A DNA stretch of 64,000 bases from Pseudomonas fragi. Lineage in GTDB: Bacteria; Pseudomonadota; Gammaproteobacteria; Pseudomonadales; Pseudomonadaceae. The notes under the pieces were generated by a model, which made no database searches, was not told the origin of the DNA, and was given only the letters and a program-made list of their open reading frames with translations. Position numbers and translations under genes: made by a program. Shown here one piece after another: positions 2,894-61,980 of this stretch. Numbering within the stretch: position 1 is the first letter of the stretch; each line of letters opens with the position of its first letter. The stretch is taken from assembly GCF_900105835.1 (NCBI RefSeq), contig NZ_LT629783.1:4672501-4736500 (forward strand). The letters run 5' to 3'.

Positions 2894-3499
2894 ATGCGTG
2901 GTCTGATTGTATTGCTGGCTTTTTTGACACTGGGCGGCTGCATGACCGTCAGCGATCTGGGTGAAAGCGCACGCTATCAAATGAGCGACGCCGGTCTGCT
3001 CGATCACAGCAATACGCGACGCAGCAATTCGCTGCGCATTCAACCGGATTCCTTTATCTATATCGCCCAAGGCCCGTTTGCACCGATCGGCGACCCCTAT
3101 GTGCGGCCCAATATCGTTGCCGAGGAAGCCTTCAACGGCTTTGTCGAATACTTCCCCATGGTGCGCCGTGCCAAAGCGCCGGTCGGGCTCGACCAGGCGA
3201 TGACCGAAGCGCGTAATTTTGGCGCTCACTATTTACTGTACACCCGCTTTGCCCGGGCCGATGACCGCATCGGCAACAGCGACGAATGGCTCGATCAGGA
3301 AGAAATCAGCCGCCTGGGCATCGACAGCGGTGTGATCCAGGTGATGTTGATCGAAACCAGCACCCAGTACCTGATCGACACCGCCACCATCCGCAGCCGC
3401 GGCGGTTTGCTGACGTTCCATGACAACAAGCCTGCCGACCTGATCGGTCCACCGCTGGCTAAATACGCCCGCAGCTTGATAGGCTTGAGCGATCAATAA
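2894..3499 (+). CDS. DUF4823-like outer-envelope lipoprotein
   Basis: 201 aa from the ATG at 2894, which follows GGAGAG. An upstream in-frame start would run through the REP element and is rejected. The N-terminus MRGLIVLLAFLTLGGCM is a signal peptide with lipobox LGGC, so cleavage and lipidation at Cys16 are expected. The rest (WXL-free, mixed alpha/beta; YLLYTRFARADDR block) resembles Pseudomonas lipoproteins annotated DUF4823. Function unknown. Sixteen bases separate it from the DUF1285 gene, suggesting one operon. Confidence 0.82.
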   Translation: MRGLIVLLAFLTLGGCMTVSDLGESARYQMSDAGLLDHSNTRRSNSLRIQPDSFIYIAQGPFAPIGDPYVRPNIVAEEAFNGFVEYFPMVRRAKAPVGLDQAMTEARNFGAHYLLYTRFARADDRIGNSDEWLDQEEISRLGIDSGVIQVMLIETSTQYLIDTATIRSRGGLLTFHDNKPADLIGPPLAKYARSLIGLSDQ

Positions 3500-3514
3500 G
3501 TCGAGGAGAGCACC

Positions 3515-4078
3515 ATGAGCGAGCCGGTAGACGTCAGCAACCTGCTGGCGCAAATCCCCAGGGCCGACAAGGGCCTGCCGCCCGTTCACTTGTGGGATAC
3601 GGCGTTTTGCGGTGACATCGATATGCGCATCGCCCGTGATGGCACCTGGTACTACATGGGCACGCCGATCGGCCGCAAACCGATGGTAAAATTGTTCTCC
3701 ACCATCATCCGCCGCGATGGCGATGATTATTTCCTGATCACCCCGGTTGAAAAGGTCGGTATCAAGGTCGATGACGCGCCTTTTGTCGCCGTAACGCTGG
3801 ACGTGGAAGGGGCGGGCGAGCAGCAAGTGCTGCGCTTTACTACCAATGTCGACGAGTCGATCAGTGCCGGTCGCGAGCATCCGCTGCGTTTCGTCATTGA
3901 TCCCCAGACCCAGGAGCCTGCGCCATACCTGCATGTGCGGCGCAATCTTGAAGCGCTGATCCACCGCAATGTGTTCTATCAGTTGATAGAGCTGGCGGTG
4001 GTGCGTGAAATCGATGGGCAAAACTGGCTGGGTGTGTGGAGCGCGGGAGTGTTCTTCCCGATAGGGCTTGAACCCTGA
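3515..4078 (+). CDS. DUF1285 family protein
   Basis: 187 aa, ATG preceded by GAGGAG. Contains DIDMRIARDGTWYYMGTPIGR and DDYFLITPVEKVGI, the hallmark blocks of DUF1285, a small cytoplasmic beta-rich fold of unknown role found widely in Proteobacteria. It is conserved next to the ETF genes in Pseudomonas by recalled synteny. Likely cotranscribed with the lipoprotein gene 15 bases upstream. Confidence 0.9.
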   Translation: MSEPVDVSNLLAQIPRADKGLPPVHLWDTAFCGDIDMRIARDGTWYYMGTPIGRKPMVKLFSTIIRRDGDDYFLITPVEKVGIKVDDAPFVAVTLDVEGAGEQQVLRFTTNVDESISAGREHPLRFVIDPQTQEPAPYLHVRRNLEALIHRNVFYQLIELAVVREIDGQNWLGVWSAGVFFPIGLEP

Positions 4079-4086
4079 GGGGGGTT

Positions 4087-4111
4087 GTGGGAGCGGGCAA
4101 TCCGCTCCCAC
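4087..4111. repeat. Short REP hairpin between convergent genes
   Basis: GTGGGAGCGG GCAAT CCGCTCCCAC: a perfect 10-bp stem that lies between the DUF1285 stop and the convergent alcohol dehydrogenase stop. It could act as a bidirectional transcript end. Confidence 0.75.
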
Positions 4112-4121
4112 AAAGACGCTT

Positions 4122-5186
4122 TTAGGCTTTCAAGGTTTTCATATCGATCACAAAGCGGTATTTCACATCGCCTTTGACTACGCGCTCAAAGGCTTCGTTG
4201 ATGTTTTTGATGTCGAGCATTTCGATATCGCAGGTAATCCCGTGCTCGGCGCTGAAATCGAGCATTTCCTGGGTTTCGGCAATGCCACCGATCAGCGAAC
4301 CGGCCAGTACGCGGCGCTTGAACACCAGGTTGAAGGCGTTCAGTGCTGGCTCAACCGGCTCGATCAGGCCCACCAGAATGTGTACGCCGTCAAAGGTCAG
4401 GGTTTCCAGGTACGGGTTCAGGTCGTGCGGCACCGGAATGGTGTCCAGCAAGAAGTCGAAGTGCCCGGCAGCGGCTTTCATCTGCTCGGGATCGGTGGAC
4501 ACGATCACATGGTCGGCGCCCTGGCGACGGGCTTCTTCAGCCTTGGCTTCGGAGCGGGTGAACAGGGTGACTTCAGCGCCCAGGGCCTTGGCGAACTTGA
4601 TGCCCATGTGGCCCAGGCCGCCCATGCCCAGAATCCCGACCTTGTCGCCCGCTTCCACGCCGTAGTGAACCAGTGGCGAGTAGGTGGTGATACCGGCGCA
4701 CAGCAGAGGTGCGGCGCTGGCCGGGTCGAGGTTTTTCGGGATGCTCAGCACGAAGTGTTCGCTGACGACCATCTTGTCCGAGTAACCGCCCATGGTCAGG
4801 GTGCCGTCGATGCGGTCCGGGCTGGCGTAGGTCTGGGTCATGCCTTCCAGGCAGTATTGCTCCAGGTCTTCCTTGCACGCCGAGCAGGTGCGGCACGAAT
4901 CGACCATGCAGCCCACGCCGACCAGATCGCCGACCTTGTGCTTGGTGACCTTGTCGCCAATAGCCGTGACCTTGCCGATGATTTCGTGGCCCGGCATCAG
5001 CGGGTAAGTGGCGAAGCCCCAGTCATTGCGCGCCTGGTGGATGTCGGAGTGGCAAACGCCGCAGTACAGCACTTCGATGGCAACGTCGTCCGGTCGTGGG
5101 GCGCGACGGTTGAACTGCATGGGCGCCAGAGGTGCCTTGGCATTCTGGGCGGCATAACCGATAGCGTTGTAAGTGACTGTGGACAT
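4122..5186 (-). CDS. Zinc-dependent NAD(P) alcohol dehydrogenase, YahK/cinnamyl-type
   Basis: 354 aa medium-chain dehydrogenase. Visible features: catalytic zinc ligands CGVCHSDIH and GHEIIG, structural zinc cysteines SCRTCSACKEDLEQYC, nucleotide-binding GMGGLGHMGIKFAKALGA, and C-terminal GDVKYRFVIDM. The whole chain aligns by eye with E. coli YahK, a broad aldehyde reductase. GAGG precedes the ATG by 6 bases. It is divergent from an AraC-type regulator, an arrangement that parallels YqhC-YqhD aldehyde response in E. coli, so aldehyde detoxification is a reasonable inference. Confidence 0.93.
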   Translation of the reverse strand: MSTVTYNAIGYAAQNAKAPLAPMQFNRRAPRPDDVAIEVLYCGVCHSDIHQARNDWGFATYPLMPGHEIIGKVTAIGDKVTKHKVGDLVGVGCMVDSCRTCSACKEDLEQYCLEGMTQTYASPDRIDGTLTMGGYSDKMVVSEHFVLSIPKNLDPASAAPLLCAGITTYSPLVHYGVEAGDKVGILGMGGLGHMGIKFAKALGAEVTLFTRSEAKAEEARRQGADHVIVSTDPEQMKAAAGHFDFLLDTIPVPHDLNPYLETLTFDGVHILVGLIEPVEPALNAFNLVFKRRVLAGSLIGGIAETQEMLDFSAEHGITCDIEMLDIKNINEAFERVVKGDVKYRFVIDMKTLKA

Positions 5187-5365
5187 GTGAACCTCGCGAA
5201 ACGTTAACTGTGGAGAGGGGGCGATTTTGCGCCTGGTTGCTTTGCAGGACTATGACGATTCCTCCGCCTGTCATGCCTATTACTCCGGAGTGTCGGGCCG
5301 GCTGTCGCTTTATTGACCAATTCTGCGAAGATGCGGCTGTCTATTCCTCCTGTGAACCTTTATCC

Positions 5366-6259
5366 ATGTTTTTGACCCGTCATCGCGACGAGAATGCCGC
5401 GCTGGTGTCTCTGATCGAACCCTTGGCAACACAGACCGGTTTTGTGTCGACCCTTTTGCCTGAAGTTCGGGTGGTTTCTGCGTGCCGGGTGGTGGCCCGG
5501 ATGCCGCAGATCTATGAGCCTAGCCTGATGGTGATCGCCCAGGGCAGTAAATTGGCCTACTTGGGCCAGCGCACCCTGGAATACGGCGCCGGGCATTATC
5601 TGGTGCAGGCGCTGGCGGTGCCGTTCGAGTGCGAAACCTTCGCCAGTGAAGAAATGCCGCTGTTGGGAGTGGCCATCAGTATTGATCGTGCAGTGCTGGG
5701 TGAGCTGGTGCTGGCAATGGGCCTGACAGCGGATCGCAATGCCGTGGCGCAGACGCCGGAGTCAATGACCTCGGCGGTACTGGATGACGACATGCGCGAG
5801 GCGGTGGAGCGCTTGCTGCGTTGCCTGCATGATCCGCTGGAGTGCCGGATCATGGGTCAGGCGCGTTTGCGCGAGGTGTTGTTTGCCGCGCTGCGCGGGC
5901 CGCAGGCGGGGGTGTTGCGGGCTTTGGTTGAGCAGCAAGGGCAGTTTGCCCGGGTGGCGGCGTCGTTAAGCTATTTGCACGAGCACTTTGCCCGGCCGCT
6001 GAATGTCGAGACCCTGGCCCGTTGCGCAAACATGAGCGCGTCCACCTTTCATGAGCATTTCAAGCGCAGCACGTTATTGTCGCCGGTGCAGTACCTCAAG
6101 CGGTTGCGATTGTTGCGCGCGCAGCAGTTGCTGCTGAGCGAGGGCTTGGGAGTGGCGCAGGTAGCGGAGCGGGTGGGTTATCAAAGTACCTCGCAGTTCA
6201 GTCGCGAGTACAAGCGTTACTTCGAACGCAGCCCGGGGCATGAAGGGGTGGGGTGCTAG
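5366..6259 (+). CDS. AraC family transcriptional regulator
   Basis: 297 aa from ATG 5366; longer frames upstream lack typical regulator sequence. The N-terminal half (ARMPQIYEPSLMVIAQGSKLAYLG) is the AraC_N cupin-like domain seen in YqhC-type regulators. The C-terminal ~100 residues carry two HTH motifs (VETLARCANMSASTFHEHFK and VAQVAERVGYQSTSQFSREY). No strong ribosome site is seen, so the start is uncertain. It probably controls the divergent alcohol dehydrogenase gene. Confidence 0.88.
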   Translation: MFLTRHRDENAALVSLIEPLATQTGFVSTLLPEVRVVSACRVVARMPQIYEPSLMVIAQGSKLAYLGQRTLEYGAGHYLVQALAVPFECETFASEEMPLLGVAISIDRAVLGELVLAMGLTADRNAVAQTPESMTSAVLDDDMREAVERLLRCLHDPLECRIMGQARLREVLFAALRGPQAGVLRALVEQQGQFARVAASLSYLHEHFARPLNVETLARCANMSASTFHEHFKRSTLLSPVQYLKRLRLLRAQQLLLSEGLGVAQVAERVGYQSTSQFSREYKRYFERSPGHEGVGC

Positions 6260-20941: not shown

Positions 20942-21031
20942 GGTGAAGTGTCCGAGTGGCTTAAGGAGCACGCCTGGAAAGTGTGTATACAAGAAATTGT
21001 ATCGAGAGTTCGAATCTCTCCTTCACCGCCA
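20942..21031 (+). tRNA. tRNA-Ser(GGA)
   Basis: 90 nt. Acceptor stem GGTGAAG pairs with CTTCACC, discriminator G and encoded CCA. Anticodon arm CACGC-CTGGAAA-GTGTG gives anticodon GGA. A long variable arm (class II) and T arm GAGAGTTCGAATCTCTC are visible. Its 3' 22 bases begin the 106-bp direct repeat that also occurs at 28692. Confidence 0.97.
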
Positions 21032-21115
21032 CATTAAGTAAACACAAACCCCTGATTTTCCTAGAGAAAGTCGGGGGTTTGTGGTTTCTGGCGTCTGGAA
21101 AAGGGCGGTATGGGA
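21010..21115 (+). repeat. 106-bp direct repeat, left copy (attL-like)
   Basis: Starts at TCGAATCTCTCCTTCACCGC inside the tRNA-Ser T arm and runs through the tRNA terminator to GGCGGTATGGGA. Identical base for base to 28692-28797. Marks the left end of an integrated island. Confidence 0.95.
21044..21082 (+). terminator. tRNA-Ser terminator hairpin
   Basis: Arms ACAAACCCC and GGGGGTTTGT flank about 20 bases; duplicated at the right end of the island with the att-like repeat. Confidence 0.7.
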
Positions 21116-21195
21116 ACAATATGGGAGCACGACCGCTGAACTGCCCGTGTTCTGCTTGAATGCTCTTCTTCGAACCTAAATGGATTTAGACTTTT

Positions 21196-21714
21196 ATGAA
21201 AGTGCTCCCCCTTGGTGTGCTGTTGTTGCTGACTGCAGGTTGCGTCCAGGTCCAGCAGTACACGCCCCCTCCCGGTGTACCCCAGGCGCAGATTCGCAGC
21301 GAAATGGACGCCTTGAGCAATTATCGCAACTACCTGACCCTGACCGAGGCGCCGATTGTGGGCTGCAAGTACGGCAGAACAGTGCCGGTGAAACCGGGTC
21401 GACAATTGTTCGCCGTGCGGGATAAGACATCCTGGCCAGCAGGCTTCATCCCGGTAGAAGCGGAAAAACCCGTCCATTTGGTAGTGGATGGCGCGGCTAA
21501 TGCCGGCCGCAGATGCAAGATCGAGTTTGTCAGCGTGTTCGCCACGGGTGCCCGTTATGTCATTAAGGGAGGTATTGTCGAGAACCCCGAGACTTACGAT
21601 TCTTGCCAAGTCAAAATCTTTAACGAGGACACCGGAGCCCCTCTGCTGATGCTCGAACCGTCAACGCTCAAGAACGACTGTGCTTTGGACAAGTTGCCGT
21701 CTACGGCGCGTTGA
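21196..21714 (+). CDS. Hypothetical lipoprotein on island
   Basis: 172 aa. Signal peptide MKVLPLGVLLLLTAGC with lipobox at Cys16. The mature part has paired cysteines (GCKYGR, RRCKIEF, DSCQVKI, NDCALD) that could form disulfides, and no domain I recognise. It is the first gene after the left island end, separated by 360 bp from the sulfur-carrier cassette. Ribosome site is weak. Confidence 0.7.
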   Translation: MKVLPLGVLLLLTAGCVQVQQYTPPPGVPQAQIRSEMDALSNYRNYLTLTEAPIVGCKYGRTVPVKPGRQLFAVRDKTSWPAGFIPVEAEKPVHLVVDGAANAGRRCKIEFVSVFATGARYVIKGGIVENPETYDSCQVKIFNEDTGAPLLMLEPSTLKNDCALDKLPSTAR

Positions 21715-21939: not shown

Positions 21940-22077
21940 GGGTTTATTTGTGCTAAAGCGCCTTGCATGTTTTTAGTTCTGATCTAATATTTGCTCGCAC
22001 TAAGCAGCACGACACGATTCTAGGACCGGTTTTCTTTCGCGCTTGCTTTCCAATTGTTTGACGTAGAAGGAACTACG

Positions 22078-23253
22078 ATGAGTGTTGACTGGCAAGGTGC
22101 GGGTGATATTCAGGCTATTTTTGGCACGCTGATCGACAAGGAGCTTAATTGCACCGTCGAAGAACGTGATCGTCTCTCTATTCCTATTTCCAATGCGCTG
22201 ATAGAAAAGTTTGCACGACTGGGGTTGTATAAATACAACTTGCCCGCCGTGTGGGGCGGTCAGGAAGTTGGTTATGCTCAGTGGGGCCGTGTGCTGGAAA
22301 AGCTCGGGTATTTATCTACGGACTTATCGTTTCCCTTTTTGATATCCGTAAGGATGTCATTTATTTCATTTCTGATTGCAGTGGGGCGGGAAGATATAAA
22401 TAACGAATACCTGGTTCACCTGATTGAGGGTAAAACAGGTGGTGCATTTGCTTATACAGAAGATGCCGATGCTTTTTCTTTTGTCTCCCGTGCAGTGCCC
22501 ACTGCGGACGGAAAAGCCTATACGGTGAATGCCGTGAAAAAGATCGTCACCGGCGGTGAGACAGCGAATTATTTTTTGCTGTTTGTTCATGGTGATACCG
22601 CTGATATGCAAGTCTTTCTTGTGCACGCCGACGATCCGGGTGTTGTGGTGACACCTAGCGTGATGCATGGCTGTCGTTCTACAGGGATTGCCTGTTTAAC
22701 ATTGACAGATGTGCGCCTGGATAAACACCGCTTGTTGCTGGCCACGGACGGTCTGAGTTTTGCGCAGCGTTATTTCCTTAATTGCAGGCGCTCATTGCAA
22801 ACCACCTTGTTTTTAGGGCGCGCCCGCGCCGTGATTGAAACCACTGTGGCGTATTTGCAAAACACTGTGCGCTACGATCAGCAATTGATCGATATGCAGC
22901 ATGTGCAGGCCTGTATTGGTGAAATGTATATGGCGCTTGAGTCATCCCGCACCTTGGTCCATTACTCACTGGAGCGTCAGGTCAGGCAAGAGTCTGACCT
23001 GTACTGGGATGCAGCCGCTTCAATGGCCAAGTATCAGGCGGTGGAGGATGTCAACAAAATCGCCTTCAAAGCCCTGAACCTGACGGGTAGCTGGGGCTAT
23101 ACCGAAAGCAGCGGTATCGGTCGGGCGCAGCGCGACTTTGCGGCGCTGGTGGCAGGGGCTGATCCGCAGGAGAAGCTCAAGGTTGATATGGGCATTCGGA
23201 TGGTGCACGACCTGGACATGATGTCCCGACGTTCTTCAAAAAAGGAGAGTTGA
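22078..23253 (+). CDS. Acyl-CoA dehydrogenase-like flavoprotein of sulfur-carrier cassette
   Basis: 391 aa from ATG 22078 (AGAAGGAA upstream). Overall acyl-CoA dehydrogenase fold: N-terminal helices, a central beta domain with GGAFAYTEDADAFSF and VKKIVTGGETANYFLLF (FAD-contacting region), and a C-terminal helical domain with VQACIGEMYMALESSRTLVHY and LNLTGSWGYTESSGIGRAQRD. I could not place the catalytic glutamate, so dehydrogenase activity is not assured. Thiocarboxylate clusters such as thioquinolobactin and PDTC are remembered to contain an acyl-CoA-dehydrogenase homologue thought to help sulfur transfer, which may be the closer functional model. Ends 2 bp before the MoaD/ThiS-like gene start region. 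Confidence 0.82.
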   Translation: MSVDWQGAGDIQAIFGTLIDKELNCTVEERDRLSIPISNALIEKFARLGLYKYNLPAVWGGQEVGYAQWGRVLEKLGYLSTDLSFPFLISVRMSFISFLIAVGREDINNEYLVHLIEGKTGGAFAYTEDADAFSFVSRAVPTADGKAYTVNAVKKIVTGGETANYFLLFVHGDTADMQVFLVHADDPGVVVTPSVMHGCRSTGIACLTLTDVRLDKHRLLLATDGLSFAQRYFLNCRRSLQTTLFLGRARAVIETTVAYLQNTVRYDQQLIDMQHVQACIGEMYMALESSRTLVHYSLERQVRQESDLYWDAAASMAKYQAVEDVNKIAFKALNLTGSWGYTESSGIGRAQRDFAALVAGADPQEKLKVDMGIRMVHDLDMMSRRSSKKES

Positions 23254-23255
23254 AC

Positions 23256-23531
23256 ATGAAGATCAAGTTGTCAGGCAATTTGGCACGTTTTGTTAACTAT
23301 AAAAAAGAGTTGAAACTGGAGGGCGATGGTATTCAGACCGTAGGCGATGCGTTGCACGCGTTGGTGGTGAATTATCCGGTATTGAAAGATATTATTTTTG
23401 ATAAGAATCACAGCGTTAAAAAAGGCTATTTGATTTCTTTGAATGGCGAAAAAGTTGACGCAGCAGTTAAAGTAAGTGCAGGCGGTGAGGGTGATTGTCT
23501 TGATATTTTTACTGCGATAGCCGGGGGGTGA
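23256..23531 (+). CDS. MoaD/ThiS-like sulfur carrier protein
   Basis: 91 aa, beta-grasp. Start ATG 23256 after AAAGGAGAG. Begins MKIKLSGNLARFVNYKKEL and ends DCLDIFTAIAGG: the free C-terminal Gly-Gly is what an E1 enzyme adenylates and converts to a thiocarboxylate. LRxG-like region ISLNGEKVDA is conserved. Because the diglycine is already terminal, no JAMM-type protease is needed to expose it. Sits two bases after the flavoprotein stop and four before the next gene: a tight operon. Confidence 0.93.
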   Translation: MKIKLSGNLARFVNYKKELKLEGDGIQTVGDALHALVVNYPVLKDIIFDKNHSVKKGYLISLNGEKVDAAVKVSAGGEGDCLDIFTAIAGG

Positions 23532-23535
23532 GGCT

Positions 23536-24369
23536 ATGCAAAGCAGAACAATAAAGGTTACGCATCCGATAGAGCCAACGCTGTTTGGTCCTTTCCAGTT
23601 TCATGCGCGCTCGCTGATGTTGATGAGTTACAGTTTGATGTGGTCCTGGTGTAGTACCTATCTGTCAGTGTCCTTTCCGGGGATGATCAAAGAGCATCAC
23701 CAAAGCATGGTGGCCGTGGGTGCCGAAGTTGAATATGTCGAACCTTTTGAGATGTTCTCGGTCGATGAGTTTTCGGTGTCGGTCGATGAGTTCAAGGTGC
23801 GCCAGGGCAACTCTGTGTTTCAAGTGCTGCACCTGGTTCGTGCCCAGGGCATTGTGGTTGCCAGGGTCAAGGTTCGCTGGAAACTGCTGGAGCTGGATGG
23901 TGATGAAGCACTGTCCGCAACGCCTGGGGTTATTCGGCCTGCTTTACTGCAGAAGTTTCTTCCCGAGGAAGTTGACCCTTCACGGGTTGAGCGGCCTTTG
24001 CTGGCGCAACTGGATAGCTTGAAAGAGCATGGGCAGCTCGGTGCCGAGTTTGAATATGACTTCACCCTGTTTCGGCATCGTTGTGAAGTGGCCGATCAAT
24101 GGGTGTTCTTTGAATTACCCACACTGGCTGCGGAAAGCAGGGAGTCATTAATTGATGCCTTGCAAGATGATCCTGACGAACTTTCCAGTTCGCTGGGCCT
24201 GGCCCTGAATGATATTTACATGGAGTGGCGTTGCCCTTTTTATCTTTTCGAAAAGGGCCGTATTAAAACGCAGGCTTATCGGCTGCAGGGCAAGCTGTAT
24301 TTCGCTCATCATGTTTTCAACCTGACGCGCGCCAATACATTGGCAGCGATCGTGATTGAAGCGTTTTAA
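23536..24369 (+). CDS. Hotdog/thioesterase-like protein of sulfur-carrier cassette
   Basis: 277 aa, no confident family. The first half (GAEVEYVEPFEMFSVDEFSV, then a beta segment SVFQVLHLVRAQGIVVARVKV) has the rhythm of a hotdog-fold acyl-thioesterase, and a weaker second copy follows (YMEWRCPFYLFEKGRIKTQA), suggesting a double hotdog. Such a fold would act on a thioester or thiocarboxylate-linked acyl group. This is inference from pattern only. It is embedded between the sulfur carrier and the E1 gene. Confidence 0.65.
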   Translation: MQSRTIKVTHPIEPTLFGPFQFHARSLMLMSYSLMWSWCSTYLSVSFPGMIKEHHQSMVAVGAEVEYVEPFEMFSVDEFSVSVDEFKVRQGNSVFQVLHLVRAQGIVVARVKVRWKLLELDGDEALSATPGVIRPALLQKFLPEEVDPSRVERPLLAQLDSLKEHGQLGAEFEYDFTLFRHRCEVADQWVFFELPTLAAESRESLIDALQDDPDELSSSLGLALNDIYMEWRCPFYLFEKGRIKTQAYRLQGKLYFAHHVFNLTRANTLAAIVIEAF

Positions 24370-24433
24370 ATTCGACTCAGGTTTTTTATCTGTCTCGTCA
24401 ATCCGATCCTAGAAAAGTGAAGGGAGCAACGCC

Positions 24434-25645
24434 ATGAGCAGGGAGGGTGATGCGATCGAGCATGAGCAACTTACCGCGGGTGAGATGGGGATGTACTCCC
24501 GTCATTTGCTGATCCCCGCGATCGGCATCAAAGGTCAACTGGCATTGAAAAATGCCAGTGTTTTAATGATTGGTGCTGGCGGCCTGGGGTGCCCGGCGCT
24601 GCTTTATCTGGCGGCTGCCGGGGTGGGGCGGCTGGGAATTATCGATGCCGACCAGATCAATGTGTCCAATGTGCACCGCCAGGTGCTGTTTCGCATCACC
24701 GATAAAGGTCAGAACAAGGTCGATGTCGCCAAGCGGCGTTTGCAAAAACTCAATCCCTATATCGAGATCGAAACCTGGATTGAGCGCTTCAACCTCGACA
24801 ATGCCCAGGCGCTTGTGGCTGATTACGACATCATTGTCGATGGCACTGACAACTTTACCGCCAAGTACTTGATCAACGATGCCTGTTTCTATGGCGGCAA
24901 GCCGCTGGTGTATGGCGCCATCATGCAGTTCGAGGGGCACGTCACGGTGTTTAACGCGCTGGATGAGCAAGGCCGTCGTGGCGCCAATTATCGTGATCTC
25001 TACGATGGTCCGCCTGATGCTGCGTTGGCGCCCAACTGCGCGGAAGCCGGGGTGTTGGGGGTGCTGCCTGGCATGATCGGCTGCTTTCAGGCCAATGAAG
25101 TGATCAAACTGATTACCGGGATCGGGCGGCCGCTGGTCAACCGCCTGATGGTCTACGACGCCCTTGAGGCCACGAGCCGGGAGATCGTTTTTTCGCCTGT
25201 CGGCGATAACCCTCTCAGGGACCCGCTGCGCCAGCCAGTGCTGGAAGAAATGGCGCAAGTCTGTAGCGCGCCAGGTGTCACCGATGACTTTATGCTGAGC
25301 ATTGAAGACTTTGCCGCGCTGATCAGTGAGACATCGATCCATCTGATTGATGTGCGTGAAGGGCATGAGCGCGAACAGGTTTCGATCGGTGGCGAACATG
25401 TCCCGTTGGAGCAGGTGGGCGAGCGGGTCGCACAGTGCCTGAGCGACAGGCCAATCGTGCTTTACTGCCAGTCGGGTGTGCGCAGCCAGAAGGTGGCGAG
25501 AATCCTCGCGCAGCAAGCACTCCGGTCACCGATTTTCAGTTTGAAAGGCGGCTTGAGCGCGTTTTTGGGCGCAGATACCTATGCGCAGATAATGGCTGAA
25601 CTGGTGTTCTGCAAATGTCCCATGAGCCATCAGGCTCGCGTGTAA
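24434..25645 (+). CDS. MoeZ-type E1 adenylyltransferase with rhodanese domain
   Basis: 403 aa. N-terminal ThiF/MoeB domain: MYSRHLLIPAIGIKGQ, ATP loop GAGGLG (47-52), DGTDNFTAKYLINDAC, and active-site Cys202 in PNCAEAGVLGVLPG. The C-terminal rhodanese domain (about 290-395) has CQSGVRS with catalytic Cys345. Such proteins adenylate the GG end of a sulfur carrier and then deliver sulfur from the rhodanese persulfide. Zinc CxxC pairs of MoeB are absent, as in other MoeZ-type enzymes. It ends in FCKCPMSHQARV. Expected partner: the 91-aa carrier two genes upstream. Confidence 0.94.
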   Translation: MSREGDAIEHEQLTAGEMGMYSRHLLIPAIGIKGQLALKNASVLMIGAGGLGCPALLYLAAAGVGRLGIIDADQINVSNVHRQVLFRITDKGQNKVDVAKRRLQKLNPYIEIETWIERFNLDNAQALVADYDIIVDGTDNFTAKYLINDACFYGGKPLVYGAIMQFEGHVTVFNALDEQGRRGANYRDLYDGPPDAALAPNCAEAGVLGVLPGMIGCFQANEVIKLITGIGRPLVNRLMVYDALEATSREIVFSPVGDNPLRDPLRQPVLEEMAQVCSAPGVTDDFMLSIEDFAALISETSIHLIDVREGHEREQVSIGGEHVPLEQVGERVAQCLSDRPIVLYCQSGVRSQKVARILAQQALRSPIFSLKGGLSAFLGADTYAQIMAELVFCKCPMSHQARV

Positions 25646-25746: not shown

Positions 25747-25923
25747 TCAGAGCGATGAGGAATGCGGGCCATTGATATCCAGATCCCTGGAAACAGCTTG
25801 CTCTGCCTCGATGAATGATGGCGTCTTGCCAGTATCGGCATAAATCTCCTCGCCTTCTTCAATCCGGATGACCTCAGAACCCTTTACATAGGGCATGGCT
25901 TGTTCTGCCTGTTCAAGGGCGCA
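25747..25923 (-). pseudogene. C-terminal fragment of the 31.7-kb hypothetical gene
   Basis: Encodes ALEQAEQAMPYVKGSEVIRI followed by EEGEEIYADTGKTPSF, nearly the same as residues in the intact gene at 31659-32000. Similarity stops exactly at 25923, where phage terminase sequence begins on the other strand. The N-terminal half of the gene is gone, so this is a truncated duplicate. Confidence 0.85.
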
Positions 25924-26560
25924 ACTTTCCGCTGGCCGTGCTGCAGACGTGCATGGTCGATAGCTGGGTGGAGTGGGCCGAGGACTCCAAGCCCTTTGCC
26001 TCACGGCCATTCGGTGACCGGCAGGAGTGGATCGGCTACGACCCGGCCGAGACGGGGGACTGCTCTGGGTTGGTGGTGTGCGCACCGCCGTTGGTACCGG
26101 GTGGGAAATATCGTGTCATGGAGCGACATCAGTTCCGGGGCATGGACTTTGCGGCGCAGGCGGCCTTTATCAAAAGCGTCTGCGACCGCAACTGGGTGAC
26201 CTATATCGGCATCGATGTCACCGGCTTGGCAGCGGCGTGGCGCAGCTGGTGCGCCAGTTCTTCCCCAACGTCACCACGTTCAGTTCTTCGCCGGAAGTCA
26301 AAACCCGACTGGTACTCAAAGCCTCCGACGTGATCCACAACGGCCACCTGGAGTTCGACGCAGGGTGGACCGATAGGGCGCAGTCGCTGATGGCCTTCCG
26401 CAAAACCGTCACCGCAGGCTGTCGCCAATACACCTATACCGCAGGACGCAACGACACTACCGGCCACGCCGACCTGGCCTGGGCGCTCTTTCACGCATTG
26501 CACACCGAACCGCTTGAGGGGCAGATCGCTGCCAATACCGGGCGGATGGAGATTTTTTGA
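25924..26560 (+). pseudogene. P2-type phage terminase large subunit remnant
   Basis: The C-terminal third of a P2 gpP-like ATPase/nuclease. First frame: FPLAVLQTCMVDSWVEW, RPFGDRQEWIGYDPAETGD, RHQFRGMDFAAQAAFIK. A one-base deletion near 26228 (TTGGCAGC where TTGGGCAGC would keep frame) moves it to a second frame with VAQLVRQFFPNVTTF, EVKTRLVLKASDVI and HADLAWALFHALHTEPLEG. No start codon region or ATPase half is present. Not functional. Confidence 0.85.
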
Positions 26561-28691: not shown

Positions 28692-28797
28692 TCGAATCTC
28701 TCCTTCACCGCCACATTAAGTAAACACAAACCCCTGATTTTCCTAGAGAAAGTCGGGGGTTTGTGGTTTCTGGCGTCTGGAAAAGGGCGGTATGGGA
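28692..28797 (+). repeat. 106-bp direct repeat, right copy (attR-like)
   Basis: Perfect copy of 21010-21115. It holds the last 22 bases of tRNA-Ser including CCA and the downstream terminator, but the rest of the tRNA is absent on its left side. Confidence 0.95.
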
Positions 28798-28877
28798 GCA
28801 TCCGTGGGAATACGGCTGCAGGCCAGTTCGCGATCCGCCCCATACCACCTTGCGGTACAGTGATGCACTGATGCGGC

Positions 28878-28947: not shown

Positions 28948-30093
28948 TTAAATCACCGCGTAGGCAAGCGCCGCAAGGTTCTGGGCACGTGGATCGATCA
29001 TCATGTGGCGACCTGATGTGGTTGTCACAAAGCTGAAGCTCACGTCACGCTCTGCATCGGCAAAGGCAATTGGGCCACCAAGCCCTATATGGCCGAAAGT
29101 GTTGGGCCCCATGCAGTGTGAAGCGTCCGGATCGGCTTTTTGCTCCATCATGCAGCCCAGGCCATAGCGCATTGGTCTTTTCCAGATTCGATCCAGGCCG
29201 TTGCTGTGCTCTTTGGTGAACTCATTGAGCATCTCTGTGCCGATCAAGCGCCCGGCCAGCAGGGCGCTGTAGAAACCGGCCAGCCCGGCTGCCGTACTGT
29301 GCGAGCATGCTCCGGGCTGTTGAAAAGCCCACCATTTACGGTCGGATGTACGCCCGGGGGATATTCCCGGGTTAGTAAATGCAAGCGTCGAAATGTCTTC
29401 TGAATGACCAGTAACCACATCACGCAAGTGCTTAGAGTAGGGGTCGCCCACTCGCCCCCTGGCCGCGTCATAATGGGCGATGCGGTAAAACTCCTGTTCT
29501 TCTACGCCAAGATGAACCTCTAGCCCGTTGGGTCGGGTTATTTCCTCGTGGATAAAGGTGCAAGGGTTGCGCCCGTCCGTTCGCCTTATCAGCTCGCCGA
29601 TTATCCAGCCGTATGTTGTGGTGCCATACCCCAGCGCAGTCCCTGGTTGCCACCATAATGGCTCGGCAGCCAGTGTCTTGACCATCTGCTCCCAGTCATA
29701 CATCGCAGGGTTGCGGTCCGGGAGTCTTAATGCCGGAATGCCAGAGGTATGGCTCATGACATGGCGCAAGGTCACCTGGCATTTACCGCCCTGCGCGAAC
29801 TCAGGCCAGTAATCAGCCACCGGGATATCCAGCTCCAGTTTTCCTTTCTCGACCAGCATTAATGCAGCCACCGCAGCGAACGGTTTTACCGTACAAAATG
29901 TATTCGCCAATGTGTGTTTGTTCCAAGGTATGTTTCCCTGGAGGTCCGACGAGCCTGCCCATAAGTCCACAACCGTCGTGCCGCCAACGTTAATACATAG
30001 CCCTGCGCCTCGTTCTTGCGGGTCATTAAAGATGGCTTCAAAAGCGCTTTTGACGGCTTCGAATTCGGGGGTACATAGTCCTTTTGCTTCCAT
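28948..30093 (-). CDS. Beta-lactamase/esterase-fold hydrolase with Cys in place of catalytic Ser
   Basis: 381 aa from ATG 30093 (GGAG 8 bases before; MEAKGLCTPEFEAVKSAF is the usual family start). Class C beta-lactamase fold: VVDLWAG, WPEFAQGGKCQVTLRHVMSH, ALGYGTTTYGWIIGEL with the catalytic Tyr, and FGHIGLGG near the C-terminus. The nucleophile motif reads FCTVK: Cys67-x-x-Lys70 (codon TGT at 29893-29895) where relatives have SxxK. No signal peptide, so a cytoplasmic esterase-like protein. Either a thiol-dependent variant or an inactive one. Confidence 0.85.
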   Translation of the reverse strand: MEAKGLCTPEFEAVKSAFEAIFNDPQERGAGLCINVGGTTVVDLWAGSSDLQGNIPWNKHTLANTFCTVKPFAAVAALMLVEKGKLELDIPVADYWPEFAQGGKCQVTLRHVMSHTSGIPALRLPDRNPAMYDWEQMVKTLAAEPLWWQPGTALGYGTTTYGWIIGELIRRTDGRNPCTFIHEEITRPNGLEVHLGVEEQEFYRIAHYDAARGRVGDPYSKHLRDVVTGHSEDISTLAFTNPGISPGRTSDRKWWAFQQPGACSHSTAAGLAGFYSALLAGRLIGTEMLNEFTKEHSNGLDRIWKRPMRYGLGCMMEQKADPDASHCMGPNTFGHIGLGGPIAFADAERDVSFSFVTTTSGRHMMIDPRAQNLAALAYAVI

Positions 30094-30275
30094 GCGTAAT
30101 GCTCCATGCAGTAAACCAGTATTTATTAACGGCATATATAGAGGGCAGGGTCGATGCCCTGCACTAAAAGGTGCCGTTGAATAAGGCGTAACGCGCTCTG
30201 AAGGTCACTGGGTGTGGGGGTGTTCAGTGGCGCTGTTTTAGGGTGAGGTGATTTAAATAAAAGAGTGTGGCCTGA

Positions 30276-31331
30276 TCAAACTTCGGGTTGCGAAAAGTTG
30301 TAGCGGTTTGAGCGCTTGTAAGTGCCAAAGTCATTGAATCTGACACCGGCATCCGCTAAAACTTTATGGGCGAAGGGTGCGGTCATTTGGCGCAGGTAGA
30401 ACGGGTCCTTCACCACAAAGTGATGAATGCAGTGGGTACTTCCGAAGTTGAAGCAAAACAACTGGAATGGCCACAGCCACCACCGGTTCATGACCTGGGT
30501 TTGTTGCAGGGGATTGCGCGGCATGACGTCGCCGAAGTAGTGAATGTTGGAGCTGATAAAAAACAGGCAGAACTGGCGGATGATATTGGGCGCGACGATA
30601 ATCACCACTGCAGCATTGACCACCTGCATCAGCAGTGCTGCGCCAGCCGAGAGCTCAACAGTGTGGCCCATCAACGAGTTCACCCATGTGTACAGGTGGT
30701 AACCCAGGAATATATACCAGCAGCCCCAGTACAGAAGCCCCATGGGCGCATTCAAGCGAAGCACCTTGACGGTCAGCCTGATTTTTTCTTTCCATGTAGA
30801 TGCGAACAAGGCATTTACAATGCCAAAGACAAAACCATCGATGAGTTTTAAAAAGCGCTTGGCGCCCCACTGGCTGCCGCTGGTGGTAATCCAGGCTTCA
30901 ACATCGGTCTGGGTGCCAGACTCTTTATGATGATGAAAGTGCAGTTCACGGCGCAGCCAGGGGCTGGGCATGCCGGGGCGGGCTATCCAGCACAACAGCA
31001 TCATCAGGTTGTGCGCCACGGGTTGTTTGCGGAAATACAGGCGATGAATCAAGTCGTGCTCAAGTTCATGAATAAATGACGTCAATAACGCATTGATTAA
31101 AATACACAGCCAGCCGGGAATAAGACCTTTTATATACAGTGTGCCTGTGACGATCATGCCAATAATTGAAACGGCCATCACGCTGGCGCCGAGGGTGTTC
31201 TGGAAAGCCAGTATGCGATAGCGTTTACGCAGCTCATTACTGTGCTGGGTGATTTTTTGAGTAACGTCGTTAATTAAATCCTGCTCGGTTTTTGGCAGGG
31301 GTGTGCGGGGTGCTTGATTAGCAGTATTCAT
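30276..31331 (-). CDS. Membrane fatty acid desaturase-like protein
   Basis: 351 aa. Three histidine boxes: HELEHDLIH, HFHHH and HCIHHF, the di-iron ligands of the integral membrane desaturase/hydroxylase family. Several hydrophobic segments (about 45-90, 185-220, 235-265) fit two membrane hairpins. ATG 31331 follows AAAGGATGAAGTG. Substrate (acyl lipid, sterol, alkane or carotenoid type) is not evident. A FadR-type palindrome is 122 bp upstream. Confidence 0.9.
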   Translation of the reverse strand: MNTANQAPRTPLPKTEQDLINDVTQKITQHSNELRKRYRILAFQNTLGASVMAVSIIGMIVTGTLYIKGLIPGWLCILINALLTSFIHELEHDLIHRLYFRKQPVAHNLMMLLCWIARPGMPSPWLRRELHFHHHKESGTQTDVEAWITTSGSQWGAKRFLKLIDGFVFGIVNALFASTWKEKIRLTVKVLRLNAPMGLLYWGCWYIFLGYHLYTWVNSLMGHTVELSAGAALLMQVVNAAVVIIVAPNIIRQFCLFFISSNIHYFGDVMPRNPLQQTQVMNRWWLWPFQLFCFNFGSTHCIHHFVVKDPFYLRQMTAPFAHKVLADAGVRFNDFGTYKRSNRYNFSQPEV

Positions 31332-31453
31332 CACTTCATCCTTTGAAGACGATGGGTCGGGAACGCTCCTCTAGAAAAGCACATTTATTTTATTGGGCAA
31401 GTTTTAAAGTTTTTATGGCGAGTTGGTCAGACGAGTGGATATATATCGTTGTA

Positions 31454-31464
31454 TTGTCTGACAA
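31454..31464. promoter_or_regulatory. FadR/GntR-type operator candidate
   Basis: TTGTCTGACAA (within the 13-bp palindrome ATTGTCTGACAAT) fits the FadR-subfamily GntR consensus TNGTNNNACNA. Located upstream of the desaturase gene; a second GTCAGAC half site lies at 31426. Confidence 0.5.
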
Positions 31465-31658
31465 TAACTTTGCAGTTTTGGACTAACTATTGCGCCGGAT
31501 TAAATACCGCCCGGCCAACTAATGGCGTATGCCATATAACTGCCTGAACCGCATTGTTGTGCATGCTCCACCGGGTTGCCGGGATTGAAGGGTTACTCTG
31601 CGGGCCTGGCAATCATCAGGGACGACCGGGCGCAGCGCTGCCCGGTCACTGCCTAAGG

Positions 31659-32000
31659 CTAGCTTGAGGAAGACGGACTGTTTACCTCCAGCGCCCTGGA
31701 GATTGCTTGTTCTGCTTTCACGAATGCTGGTGTCTTGCCAGCATCGGCATAAATCTCCTCGCCTTCTTCAATCCGGATGACCTCAGAACCCTTTACATAG
31801 GGCATGGCCTGTTCTGCTTGTTCAAGGGCGCAATGAATCAGGCTTTGGGTAATGGTGGCCTCATCCAGGCCGTAGGCTTGGGCGAAAGCCTTGATTTTGA
31901 CCAGATCACGCTTGTGCAGTGAAAGGCTGTATTCAACCCGCTCACTGGACTCCTGAGATCTGGATTCCCAGTTGTCGAGCATGGCCCTGAAGGCGTCCAT
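31659..32000 (-). CDS. Hypothetical DNA-binding-like small protein
   Basis: 113 aa from ATG 32000 (AGGAGA before it). Residues about 20-60 (VEYSLSLHKRDLVKIKAFAQ, then YGLDEATITQSLIHCALEQAEQAM) resemble the beta-helix-helix pattern of small antitoxin or mobilisation-type DNA-binding proteins, followed by an acidic IEEGEEIYADAGKT and a Ser-rich end. No partner toxin gene beside it. A truncated copy lies in the island at 25747-25923. Family not recognised with confidence. Confidence 0.65.
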   Translation of the reverse strand: MDAFRAMLDNWESRSQESSERVEYSLSLHKRDLVKIKAFAQAYGLDEATITQSLIHCALEQAEQAMPYVKGSEVIRIEEGEEIYADAGKTPAFVKAEQAISRALEVNSPSSSS

Positions 32001-59500: not shown

Positions 59501-60182
59501 CCTTGTTGATCATGTAATGGGTTGAGACCGTGTCCCCCAGGAATACATCCGCCTGATCGAAAGCCACGGCATTGAGTGCGTTTTGATAAGACGGATATGA
59601 CTGGATGATGGCCTTGGGGTAGAGCGCCTTGATCTCATCCAGGGGCAGGTAGTGGTAAACCATGCTCAGGCGCAAGCCTTCAAGGCCTTGTGAAAGCGAC
59701 CGCGTTTCGCCCTCGCGGGTCACCAGTACGGGCTGGTCGATGGCGTATGGCGCAGAAAGCAGCAGGTTGCGGTTGGCGGCTTCAAACCCATTGGACGTAC
59801 CGAGCAGGTCGATCTGGCCCTCTTCAAGGGCCTTGATGGCAGCGTCTCTGGATGCAAAGCGCTCAACTTTTATTGATACATCGAGGGTTTTGGCCAGGAT
59901 GCCGACGTAATCGGCGGTGAGCCCTTCGTAGTCCTGACCGCTGTCGGTCATGTCGAAGGGCGGGTAATCGGTAGTTGAAGTACCCACCCGAAGCTCGCGC
60001 TTGTGCTCCAGCCAGGAACGCTGCGCGTTATCCAGCGCAACTTCCACGCCAGAGGTGGCCGAGCGGCTGAGCAATGAAAGGGTTTCAGTGCGGGCGGGTT
60101 CGGCGGACACGCAGGTGCACAGCACTAAAGCAGTGAGCAGTGATAAATACTTGTTTAACCGCGTGGGCATTCTGTTTCTCAC
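56547..60182 (-). CDS. BvgS/EvgS-type hybrid sensor histidine kinase
   Basis: 1211 aa. Signal peptide, two periplasmic SBP_bac_3 domains (about 55-280 with LRVGTSTTDYPPFDMTDSG; 300-540 with VVRVVVSETLAPLTFFDAHG), membrane helix near 560, PAS (PHPIYVRDREGILKTCNDSY), HisKA FLATMSHEIRTPMNAV, HATPase (DTGIGISDRDQARLFEPFAQ), receiver (NVLVVDDHPANRLLM, DCNMPVMNGYDLTR), and HPT (ADIAHRIKGAARIVGA). Unorthodox phosphorelay for a LuxR-type regulator; the start GTG overlaps the stop of that regulator gene, of which only the 3' end remains beside it. An alternative start ATG is at 60170. Confidence 0.93.
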   Translation of the reverse strand: MRNRMPTRLNKYLSLLTALVLCTCVSAEPARTETLSLLSRSATSGVEVALDNAQRSWLEHKRELRVGTSTTDYPPFDMTDSGQDYEGLTADYVGILAKTLDVSIKVERFASRDAAIKALEEGQIDLLGTSNGFEAANRNLLLSAPYAIDQPVLVTREGETRSLSQGLEGLRLSMVYHYLPLDEIKALYPKAIIQSYPSYQNALNAVAFDQADVFLGDTVSTHYMINKGYLKNIKMANFGRHEAQGFSFAVRHDNAQLLAIINATLKAVPDSEQERIAKRWSAGSDILLSDNKLQLTGREEQWLAQHPVVRVVVSETLAPLTFFDAHGNFRGITADLLEMIRLRTGLRFEIQRAHGLNTMIQRVKQGETDIISAISPTASRESTLKFTRPYLVNSFVLLTAKGRQAPASLEQLAGKKLALSQGNPLTDYLRSQYPRITLVETESIYRATELLAEGEVQGAVNTLVIANYLLASQMFRDRLQISATLGTQPATFALATARDATELHSILNKALLSIAPDELGIINSRWRGYAPASDSYWRNYHRLIYQIIIGTSLLLLLSLVWNAYMRRQIRHRKIAERALSDQFEFMRAMVNGTPHPIYVRDREGILKTCNDSYLQAFSARREDVIGKTVMQACGLLSNECEAHDYQADYLRVMAEGTPLVLDRPLNIGGKNFTIYHWILPFRDSLGEVQGIIGGWIDISERRHLLDELRAAKELADDANRAKSTFLATMSHEIRTPMNAVIGLLELTLKRADQGHLDRPSIEVAYHSAKDLLELIGDILDIARIESGRLNLSPERVNLRNLAHSVIRVFDGLARQKNLTLSLQFHPRGDAPDVLIDPLRFKQILTNLVSNAIKFTRQGQVTLAINLLPASTPDHTELQLSVQDTGIGISDRDQARLFEPFAQAENSGQLALNGAGLGLLICRSLCEMMGGTLELSSQVNVGTLVEIKLRLPTLPPCLSSAAHEPVINPAAHRLNVLVVDDHPANRLLMCQQLGYLGHRFTTEHDGAAGFKTWKEGTFDLVIADCNMPVMNGYDLTRAIRQYEQASQQRPCTVLGFTANAQPEERQRCAMAGMDDCLFKPISLTLLSQHLAALVPLDTGNEAFNLESLNALSGGDNERKQRLLEELLRSNGQDLKALMHLPDNGDLKPFADIAHRIKGAARIVGAAQLIKHCEILEHASPSNLIQARNDVQAAMQALEQVLARQLQKLASGT

Positions 60183-60256
60183 ACCAGGCCGTTACGTTTG
60201 GCCATTTCGATAAGTTCAACCAATGAGTGGGCTTTTAGTTTTTGCATGAGCCGTTT
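60179..60256 (-). pseudogene. 3' end of LuxR/BvgA-type response regulator gene, cut by mobile element
   Basis: Minus strand encodes KRLMQKLKAHSLVELIEMAK followed by RNGLV and stop: the last two helices of a NarL/LuxR HTH (BvgA/EvgA end in a similar RL.QKL....LV.LI.LA). A stop (TAA, 60257-60259) stands immediately upstream and foreign sequence with the recombinase promoter begins there. The remainder of the regulator should lie past the element outside the window. Confidence 0.87.
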
Positions 60257-60282
60257 TTACAGCTTTTTCATATGTGTATAAT
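60256..60282 (+). promoter_or_regulatory. Promoter of the serine recombinase at island edge
   Basis: TTTACA - 15 bp - TATAAT (or TTTTAC with 16), 30 bp before the recombinase start. It begins at the junction with the response regulator remnant. Confidence 0.65.
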
Positions 60283-60311
60283 TATTGCTTCGGCACTATT
60301 CCGGGGGCGTT

Positions 60312-61874
60312 ATGCCTACAGCATTCAGTTACTCACGTTTTTCCAGTGTCACCCAGAAGCGCGGATCAAGCCTTGAGCGTCAGCAGTCGATGGTTTCTGA
60401 ATGGCACGTTCGTCACCCTGAATATTCGTCAAGCAAGTTGACGTTCCAAGACTTGGGCAAGAGCGGTTGGAAGGGGGAGCACATCAAGGAGGGGGGTGGC
60501 TTCGCTGATTTACTTGCGGCTGTAACAGCTGGTGTTATTCAGGAGGGCGATGCCGTCCTTGTAGAGTCTGTGGACAGAGCTGGGCGCTTGGATACGTTAG
60601 ACATGCTGACGAGAGTGATTTCTCCGATTCTCCGTGCAGGTGTGTCGATCATCACTCTGGACGACAACGTGATCTATACACGCCAGAGCTTAGATGGGGG
60701 GGCCATTTACATCCTGCTCGGGAAGATCCAAGCAGCTCGGCAATACAGCGATAACCTGAGTCGTCGCCTTAAAGGTTCATACGACTCTCGACGTCGGCTC
60801 GCCAATGAGGGTAAGACACCCAAACGCAATACGCCTGCATGGCTGACATCGAAAGGGGAGGTGGTTGTAGAGGTCGCGGCTCAGGTGAAGCTGGCGTTTG
60901 AACTTTACGCATCCGGTCTGGGGAAGGCTGTAATCGCAAAGCGTATGCGGGAGAGTGGTGTCGAGGCGCTGGCCAAGTGTTCTGGCCCCGGTGTGGAAGG
61001 CTGGCTGAGGAATGAAGCTGCGATTGGCCGCTGGGACGGTGCCCAAGTATATGAGCCTATCATCGACATTTCGTTGTATCACCTTGCCCAACTCGAAGGT
61101 CAGAGGCGTAAGACGTCCAAAAAGATTAAAACAGCCGCACATTTCTACGTTGGATTAATCAAATGCGGCTGCTGTAGTCATAACTTCATTATGCGTACTA
61201 TCAAGGGTGTGCAGGTTTCCATGCGGTGCAGGAAGCGACAGGAGTTGAATGGATGCGACAACAAGAAAGTCATCCCCAGAGAAATCATTGATGCTGTGTA
61301 CCTTCGCACTTCTGCGACGGCAGCCCTTAGAGCTGTAGAGCGTAACCATACAGGTGTGAACGAACAGGCAATCATTGCTGCTGAGGTTAAGTTGCTGGAA
61401 ACCTCTAGGATACTGAAGAGCTATTCATCCGCTATTGAAGTTGTTGGCGACATTCCTGAGGTGTTAGATCAGCTCATGCGTGCAGATGAAGCACGCAAAG
61501 TTGCTGAGCGAGAGTTGGCCATGCTTAAGGCGACTGTAGTCCCCGATGCAGGACGTAACTGGCAAAAACAAGGGGATGTTTGGACATTAGAAAGAAGCGA
61601 CCCACAAAGGCTCTCAGCAATGCTCCGTAGTGTCGGATACAGTATTACAATTCATTCAGACGGTCGTCTTGTGTCGGATTCTGGTGCAACATTTCGTTAT
61701 GCTGGTGTTGATCGAAAGCTAAACCGATACAAGCTGATGTGGGGTAACGATCTCATATTAGTCTTGAAAGGGCCGGATGAGGATTATCCGTACTGGGAGC
61801 CGTTTGAGGAAATAGCGGGTAGTGCTACGTGGGATAATGCGGATTATGAAAACCTTCGCTTGCAATACGAATGA
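60312..61874 (+). CDS. Large serine recombinase (integrase)
   Basis: 520 aa from ATG 60312. Resolvase domain with catalytic Ser in YSRFSSVTQKRGSSLERQ (about 7-25) and VLVESVDRAGRLDTL; Recombinase domain around NEGKTPKRNTPAWLT; zinc beta-ribbon CGCCSHNFIMRTIK ... MRCRKRQELNGCDN (about 295-330); C-terminal coiled coil. This class performs directional attP x attB integration with a 2-bp core, often inside genes. It most likely inserted this element into the regulator gene just upstream. Confidence 0.94.
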   Translation: MPTAFSYSRFSSVTQKRGSSLERQQSMVSEWHVRHPEYSSSKLTFQDLGKSGWKGEHIKEGGGFADLLAAVTAGVIQEGDAVLVESVDRAGRLDTLDMLTRVISPILRAGVSIITLDDNVIYTRQSLDGGAIYILLGKIQAARQYSDNLSRRLKGSYDSRRRLANEGKTPKRNTPAWLTSKGEVVVEVAAQVKLAFELYASGLGKAVIAKRMRESGVEALAKCSGPGVEGWLRNEAAIGRWDGAQVYEPIIDISLYHLAQLEGQRRKTSKKIKTAAHFYVGLIKCGCCSHNFIMRTIKGVQVSMRCRKRQELNGCDNKKVIPREIIDAVYLRTSATAALRAVERNHTGVNEQAIIAAEVKLLETSRILKSYSSAIEVVGDIPEVLDQLMRADEARKVAERELAMLKATVVPDAGRNWQKQGDVWTLERSDPQRLSAMLRSVGYSITIHSDGRLVSDSGATFRYAGVDRKLNRYKLMWGNDLILVLKGPDEDYPYWEPFEEIAGSATWDNADYENLRLQYE

Positions 61875-61946
61875 CGAGAAGCAGTTATTAAGTAGTTCTT
61901 AGTTCACCAGCGGAAACTTTTATTTTATGAAATGCCATTCATAAGA

Positions 61947-61974
61947 TTGACTTTCCTCACTTCCGTGGTAAAAT
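61947..61974 (+). promoter_or_regulatory. Strong sigma-70 promoter
   Basis: TTGACT - 16 bp - TAAAAT, 200 bp before the next gene; predicted start near 61981. Confidence 0.7.
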
Positions 61975-61980
61975 ATGTAT

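Follow-up and report, generated by a model that had tools for sequence, protein, structure and literature searches.

A four-gene operon in Pseudomonas fragi that may pass sulfur to acyl chains

What could be made by four closely packed genes of Pseudomonas fragi that set a sulfur carrier and its activating enzyme beside two acyl-type enzymes? The genes lie in the window analysed here, a stretch of 64,000 nucleotides covering positions 4,672,501-4,736,500 of a single-contig genome of 5.07 Mb (G000). An earlier note on this DNA had described a compact sulfur-carrier cassette, and all four open reading frames (ORFs) were confirmed on the plus strand at 22078-25645, with intergenic gaps of -4 to +64 nt. 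The parts are familiar and the combination is unusual; together they look like a compact machine for passing sulfur to an acyl chain. Judged from sequence, the chance that the operon as a whole serves thio-acylation falls a little short of even. The four genes are as follows, with ACAD standing for acyl-coenzyme A (acyl-CoA) dehydrogenase and ACP for acyl carrier protein.

22078-23253, plus strand: ACAD-fold flavoprotein, 391 amino acids from ATG, with Pfam ACAD N, M and C domains and without a catalytic carboxylate; proposed S-oxygenase
23250-23531, plus strand: ThiS/MoaD/SAMP1-like sulfur carrier with a C-terminal Gly-Gly, 93 amino acids from TTG at 23250 or 91 amino acids from ATG at 23256
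23536-24369, plus strand: double-hotdog protein, 277 amino acids, with an acyl-ACP-thioesterase fold and CEVADQW at residues 183-189; proposed acyl/sulfur transferase
24434-25645, plus strand: E1 of the MoeZ/Uba4/MoeB type, 403 amino acids, with a ThiF and a C-terminal rhodanese domain (Pfam)

The proposal starts from the gene set and its conservation, the predicted folds, the lack of a dehydrogenase base and of the D-x-N-x-H thioesterase motif, the cysteines of the E1 and its rhodanese domain, and a desulfurase linked to the operon in one genome. From these we infer four reactions, a substrate chain and a product. Sulfur from cysteine, supplied by a desulfurase (in cis in Yersinia, otherwise cellular), would be loaded onto the E1 as a persulfide at its rhodanese domain. 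The E1 would then adenylate the carrier at its C-terminal Gly-Gly and turn this tail into a thiocarboxylate, after which the double-hotdog protein would move a pre-activated acyl group, as acyl-ACP or acyl-CoA, onto the carrier sulfur instead of onto water, and release from the carrier would give an acyl thiocarboxylic acid. Finally, the base-less ACAD-fold flavoprotein would oxidise this sulfur, and the likeliest outcome is an acylsulfenic acid or something formed from one. We put the first three steps, taken jointly, at about an even chance; that the fourth is an S-oxidation we regard as doubtful.

Domain content agrees with the note's view that carrier and E1 are machinery for a protein thiocarboxylate, since Pfam finds ThiS, ThiF and Rhodanese. 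By Pfam the four cassette proteins contain no type III CoA-transferase domain and, as the note had said, no acyl-CoA synthetase/ligase or JAMM/JAB domain; the neighbouring ORFs were mostly read by eye. A pre-activated acyl-ACP or acyl-CoA substrate is a possible explanation for the missing ligase, and a JAMM protease for trimming the tail would not be needed because the carrier already ends in Gly-Gly (12 of 12 aligned carriers). Consensus scans were uninformative, with one promoter-like site against 3.6 expected and seven terminator-like sites against 4.2 expected.

Co-occurrence was counted over 21 distinct double-hotdog loci, the window and 20 others, with genes scored as together when they lay within 5 kb on one strand. 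Flavoprotein, carrier and double-hotdog protein were found together in 18 of the 21, spread over Gammaproteobacteria, a Myxococcales metagenome-assembled genome (MAG) and Actinomycetota, a recurrence that makes the arrangement more than chance. The carrier gene stands beside the double-hotdog gene in 20 loci, and the E1 is in cis in eight, all of them Pseudomonas or Yersinia. Thus the co-occurrence in other genomes that the note had suggested looking for extends to a three-gene core, and to all four genes only in these eight. Omitted from the count as copies of the same places were L001, L003-L006, L010, L011, L019, L023-L025, L031, L035-L040, L042-L045 and L056; two other S. clavuligerus records (H1, H3/L057), a weak match in the own genome (L002) and a partial match in another (L041 in G1164, E 5.7e-14) were also left out.

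The set is rare. Counting the own genome, five of 398 genomes from the genus had a double-hotdog match. With at most six first-look candidates scored per genome, such a match was present in six of 392 genomes of a Streptomyces sample (one of them partial), in one of 398 genomes of the phylum sample (the own genome) and in one of 396 genomes sampled around Streptosporangium (the genome at the centre); the last two samples held no further bearer. Protein searches yielded 4 and then 13 relatives, and scanning GTDB contigs with the pattern CE[VL]ADQW[AVS] gave 13 loci in Pseudomonas, Yersinia vastinensis, the Myxococcales MAG, Streptomyces, Couchioplanes and Streptosporangium. Viral contigs gave one matching stretch and no relative, phages gave no match, and the three plasmid records that matched were all from S. 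clavuligerus and unannotated. Among the named loci compared, the window cassette is closest to those of Pseudomonas sp. NKUCC02_KPG, P. fragi and P. psychrophila.

The surroundings of the core bear on its substrate. In S. chattanoogensis (L019/L053) the cassette adjoins two AMP-ligases, an ACP and a second ACAD, and a locus from the Streptomyces sample (L047) likewise has AMP-ligases and a second ACAD beside it; a further cassette (L048) lies near a chorismate-binding enzyme and genes that look by eye like nonribosomal peptide synthetases (NRPS). The borders of such high-GC genes are approximate, as they come from a simple frame scorer. The neighbours of L019 and L047 would suit an acyl substrate that is bound to a carrier and specially produced by these strains. 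Beside the Pseudomonas cassettes, no polyketide synthase (PKS) or NRPS genes were seen among the ORFs read by eye, and that operon may draw on acyl-ACP or acyl-CoA from primary metabolism. Away from the main cluster, the S. chattanoogensis genome has two more double-hotdog copies: L050 (9582-10534), which is spread over two frames and adjoins a carrier, and L049 (9842-10615), which stands alone.

The acyl transfer is assigned to the 277-aa protein. It reaches no Pfam family cut-off (best 4HBT_2, 16.2 bits against 25.5), yet its AlphaFold2 model is a double hotdog over the whole length (predicted local distance difference test, pLDDT, 89.1; predicted template modelling score 0.88), so that structure prediction, a check the note had named, bore out its guess at the fold. 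The model resembles acyl-ACP thioesterases and LnmK, an acyltransferase/decarboxylase, at 6-12% identity among the top rows. A search of the PDB by sequence with the family gave only single-hotdog or unrelated matches (YbaW 1njk, E 0.0091 and 0.001), and none of the 21 members matched Acyl-ACP_TE of Pfam at E values up to 10. In the own genome PF01643 matched two other short frames (L054 and L055), which were not used.

We take D-x-N-x-H to be the catalytic motif of FatA/FatB-type acyl-ACP thioesterases. By pattern search it is absent from all 21 members, and CE[VL]ADQW is present in all 21, a count that is partly selected because the scan pattern CE[VL]ADQW[AVS] picked eight of the rows; the remaining 13 were not picked by the pattern, though word matches may favour the motif. 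The note's added thioesterase-like protein has the acyl-ACP-thioesterase fold with another motif, which makes the protein more likely to be the acyl/sulfur transferase itself than an extra thioesterase. CE[VL]ADQW sits in the C-terminal hotdog, and this is the half that cleaves the thioester in FatB (PMC9806908). We hold a plain thioesterase unlikely, given the missing motif and the carrier adjoining in 20 of 21 loci; yet 12 of the 21 members match the 4HBT_2 thioesterase family weakly (best E 1.6e-5), which leaves plain thioester hydrolysis a share of the probability.

The flavoprotein shows the three-domain ACAD fold. At neither the canonical nor the isovaleryl base position do any of 17 cassette flavoproteins have Asp or Glu: one position holds Ala, Gly or Gln, and the other, that of the catalytic Glu of isovaleryl-CoA dehydrogenase, holds Arg in all 17 (17 of the 18 flavoprotein loci were compared, L013 by its C-terminal part and with the frameshifted L015 excluded; another comparison took in 14). 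The comparison proteins keep the base: it is Glu in three ACADs encoded by the own genome, and Asp or Glu in the additional ACADs that stand beside the cassettes of L019 and L047. What the note had called an acyl-CoA-dehydrogenase-like protein is therefore one in fold and not in its catalytic base, and a classical dehydrogenase was held unlikely on these grounds. The loss of the base is compatible with oxygenase activity of the group D or TdaE type discussed below, and is not proof of it. Two of the flavoproteins (L047, 13192-15579; L048, 11084-12799) carry C-terminal extensions of about 280-400 residues that have no Pfam match at E 1e-4, and have Gln at the catalytic-Glu position. In P. psychrophila DSM 17535 (L015, 8544-9715) the gene was matched as two overlapping pieces, and so appears frameshifted in that record.

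The strongest rival accepts the thiocarboxylic acid and stops there, leaving the ACAD-like protein to carbon-chain redox (desaturation or other) through an unrecognised base, or to a structural part. Thioplatensimycin provides a precedent, as acyl-CoA and a carrier thiocarboxylate give the thioacid there (PMC6006322), and both the model and the sequence of the flavoprotein come closest to classical ACADs. That neither known base position has a carboxylate in any of the 17, with Arg at one of them throughout, argues the other way, as do the separate ACADs of L019 and L047, whose Asp or Glu at the base position means that desaturation may already be supplied. On balance this rival seems unlikely to us.

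A second rival concerns the carrier and the E1, and their sequences speak to it. The carrier matches the beta-grasp ThiS domain of Pfam (PF02597, 24.8 bits, cut-off 22.5), and its best solved relatives are SAMP1 structures (E 1.5e-5); against the SAMP1-like profile NF041918 it scores 42.0 bits, under the cut-off of 60. Gly-Gly is the extreme C-terminus of all the aligned carriers, that of the window ending in IAGG. The E1 matches ThiF at 250.7 bits and Rhodanese at 35.6 bits, and its Cys202 and rhodanese Cys345 are invariant in five of five sequences, with a rhodanese loop of CQSGVRS (CQSGARS in one relative). It has no zinc CxxC; the CYRC of Uba4 aligns to NYRD, which is kept in all five. It fails the NCBIfam MoeZ cut-off (NF005902, 336.2 bits against 647), narrowly passes that of the MoeB subfamily (NF004281, 267.7 against 266) and stays under the narrower MoeB equivalog TIGR02355 (209 against 376.55). 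With a SAMP1-like carrier and an Uba4/MoeB-like E1, one might think of protein conjugation by a ubiquitin-like carrier, of tRNA thiolation or of a cofactor pathway. The constant partners, however, are acyl-type enzymes, the genome has two further E1-like frames (labelled MoeB-like and TcdA-like from length and similarity), and a set borne by five of 398 genus genomes is unlike a housekeeping modification. A housekeeping cofactor or tRNA pathway was held unlikely for the last two reasons, and we consider this group of roles improbable as a whole.

The supply of sulfur fits the thio-acylation proposal. A protein thiocarboxylate is usually made with a desulfurase, a rhodanese-E1 and a GG-ended carrier, and the operon of Yersinia vastinensis is headed by a cysteine desulfurase of the SufS family (TIGR01979, 536 bits against a cut-off of 475.1). 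The stop codon of this desulfurase gene precedes the first ATG in the flavoprotein frame by 25 nt and the aligned ATG by 52 nt. At loci without a linked E1, that enzyme may act in trans: the actinomycete genomes G400-G403, which have the core or part of it, each encode a MoeZ-like E1 elsewhere (43-46% identity), and in the Myxococcales genome (G399) a 408-aa frame matches at 50% across the ThiF part. Conjugate thiolation, in which the carrier thiocarboxylate would attack the beta carbon of an enoyl thioester in the double-hotdog site, hydratase-like, and give a beta-mercapto acyl product, is a remaining reading that we think quite improbable.

Besides the partial selection of the motif and the weak 4HBT_2 matches, several points weigh against thio-acylation with S-oxidation. 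Residues 184-186, inside the motif, have a pLDDT below 50 in the model, and the motif was compared with thioesterases by pattern and hotdog half, not residue by residue to the active site. In sequence as in structure, the nearest neighbours of the flavoprotein are classical ACADs and carrier-bound prolyl dehydrogenases such as PigA and AnaB, not a monooxygenase; no monooxygenase is among the best 50 matches listed for its structure model, which excludes nothing, and against the DszC model it scores 20.9 bits with a cut-off of 850. None of the four genes encodes a flavin reductase. Three of the 21 loci (L021, L050 and L049) have no detectable flavoprotein, and L049 has no carrier either. Since the E1 passes the MoeB subfamily cut-off, its sequence does not single it out as a dedicated enzyme. 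Finally, the core is present in P. lundensis (L017/G106), yet none of the E1 matches in that genome reaches into the rhodanese part; either the operon relies on a different E1 in this species or it is in decay.

The flanks of the operon hold the following features.

20942-21031, plus strand: tRNA-Ser(GGA), the integration site (ARAGORN)
21010-21118, plus strand: left copy of a 109-bp direct repeat, att-like, overlapping the 3' end of the tRNA
21196-21714, plus strand: 172-aa protein of unknown family, no Pfam or NCBIfam match at E 0.001
28692-28800, plus strand: right copy of the same 109-bp repeat, at 99% identity

The repeats, of which the left copy begins inside the 3' end of the tRNA-Ser gene, place the cassette within a 7.7-kb island. 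Between them, at 25938-26557, a phage large-terminase RNaseH-like domain (PF17289) is split over two overlapping frames as a prophage remnant, and these features support the note's claim of a mobile island. The G+C content is 0.496 at 22001-24000, with 23 of the 32 2-kb segments at 0.570-0.615 and three others nearly as low (0.500-0.507; 30001-32000 and 60001-64000). The 172-aa protein also adjoins the cassette in L008, L012 and L015 (nucleotide identity 86.5-92.7%). In these three and in L011 the cassette likewise lies between tRNA-Ser and the same downstream genes, which from sequence reading we presume to be DUF4142-like, MFS, EarP and Efp genes; L009 and L013 retain downstream genes of that set, L009 with a phage-type integrase upstream. 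We read the tRNA-Ser site as an insertion hotspot. A second direct repeat, of 169 bp and 86% identity, occurs just 3' of the E1 gene (25756-25924) and at 31665-31833, and L008, L012, L013 and L015 have similar copies after the cassette. In the same hotspot of L008, at 3090-5881, a 339-aa ORF that by eye resembles an IS30-type transposase is present twice, with a piece of a fatty-acid-desaturase-like gene on either side.

Taken at its widest, the proposal describes a self-contained, horizontally moving operon in which an acyl-ACP-thioesterase fold has been turned from hydrolysis to sulfur transfer, so that in Pseudomonas and other bacteria ordinary acyl chains of acyl-ACP or acyl-CoA would become fatty acylsulfenic acids with no ligase, CoA-transferase, PKS or NRPS dedicated to the task; in this full form it is rather doubtful. 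If true, it would add a second enzymatic route to thiocarboxylic acids, with a hotdog protein replacing the PtmU4-type CoA-transferase, and a new role for the acyl-ACP-thioesterase fold. For Pseudomonas and actinomycetes it would also offer a genetic starting point in the search for acylsulfenic acids or labile sulfur lipids. Genome mining can use the three-gene core together with CE[VL]ADQW as a probe.

Among known systems, the PtmA3/PtmU4 cassette of thioplatensimycin, in which the carrier thiocarboxylate gives its sulfur to an activated acyl group (PMC6006322), is a close parallel. With it and with QbsK/QbsL, Pdt OrfI/OrfJ and YtkF/YtkG, our proposal shares the carrier thiocarboxylate as sulfur donor. 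It differs from the PtmA3/PtmU4 type in that the four genes encode neither an acyl-CoA synthetase nor a type III CoA-transferase, the hotdog protein being proposed in their place, and in the added flavoprotein. Operons joining a ThiS/MoaD-like carrier, an E1-rhodanese and a JAB protein were described by Iyer et al. in 2006 (PMC1779556) and share the carrier and E1-rhodanese pair; the JAB protease is not among the four genes here. The main text of that paper contains no occurrence of 'acyl-CoA dehydrogenase', 'thioesterase', 'hotdog' or 'hot dog' (PMC1779556). The carrier/E1/JAMM operons qbs and pdt differ in the same way, having a JAMM/JAB gene that none of our four proteins represents. A literature search found no title describing this gene set among the matches listed, with subscription literature mostly outside its reach. 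FatA/FatB and LnmK share their fold with the 277-aa protein, but at 6-12% identity and with CE[VL]ADQW here in place of D-x-N-x-H.

For the flavoprotein, monooxygenases with an ACAD fold exist as group D (PMC10696468), and ACAD-like TdaE, an oxygenase in the pathway of a sulfur antibiotic, first performs a classical dehydrogenation (PMC8283759). Both are alike to the cassette protein in the ACAD-like fold, TdaE by description and not by sequence; and TdaE, because it dehydrogenates first, is an imperfect precedent for S-oxidation, which counts against our fourth step. In the sulfenicin study by Xue et al. in Nat. Chem. 2025, a flavin-dependent S-hydroxylase reportedly hydroxylates the sulfur of a thiocarboxylic acid to give an acylsulfenic acid, the enzymes being partly from primary metabolism and such enzymes being called widespread. 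This chemistry, likened by description and not by sequence, would fit a base-less ACAD-fold flavoprotein beside a sulfur carrier. If the sulfenicin enzymes are homologous, the operon would be a new minimal member of that chemistry, and if they are not, an independent route to it.

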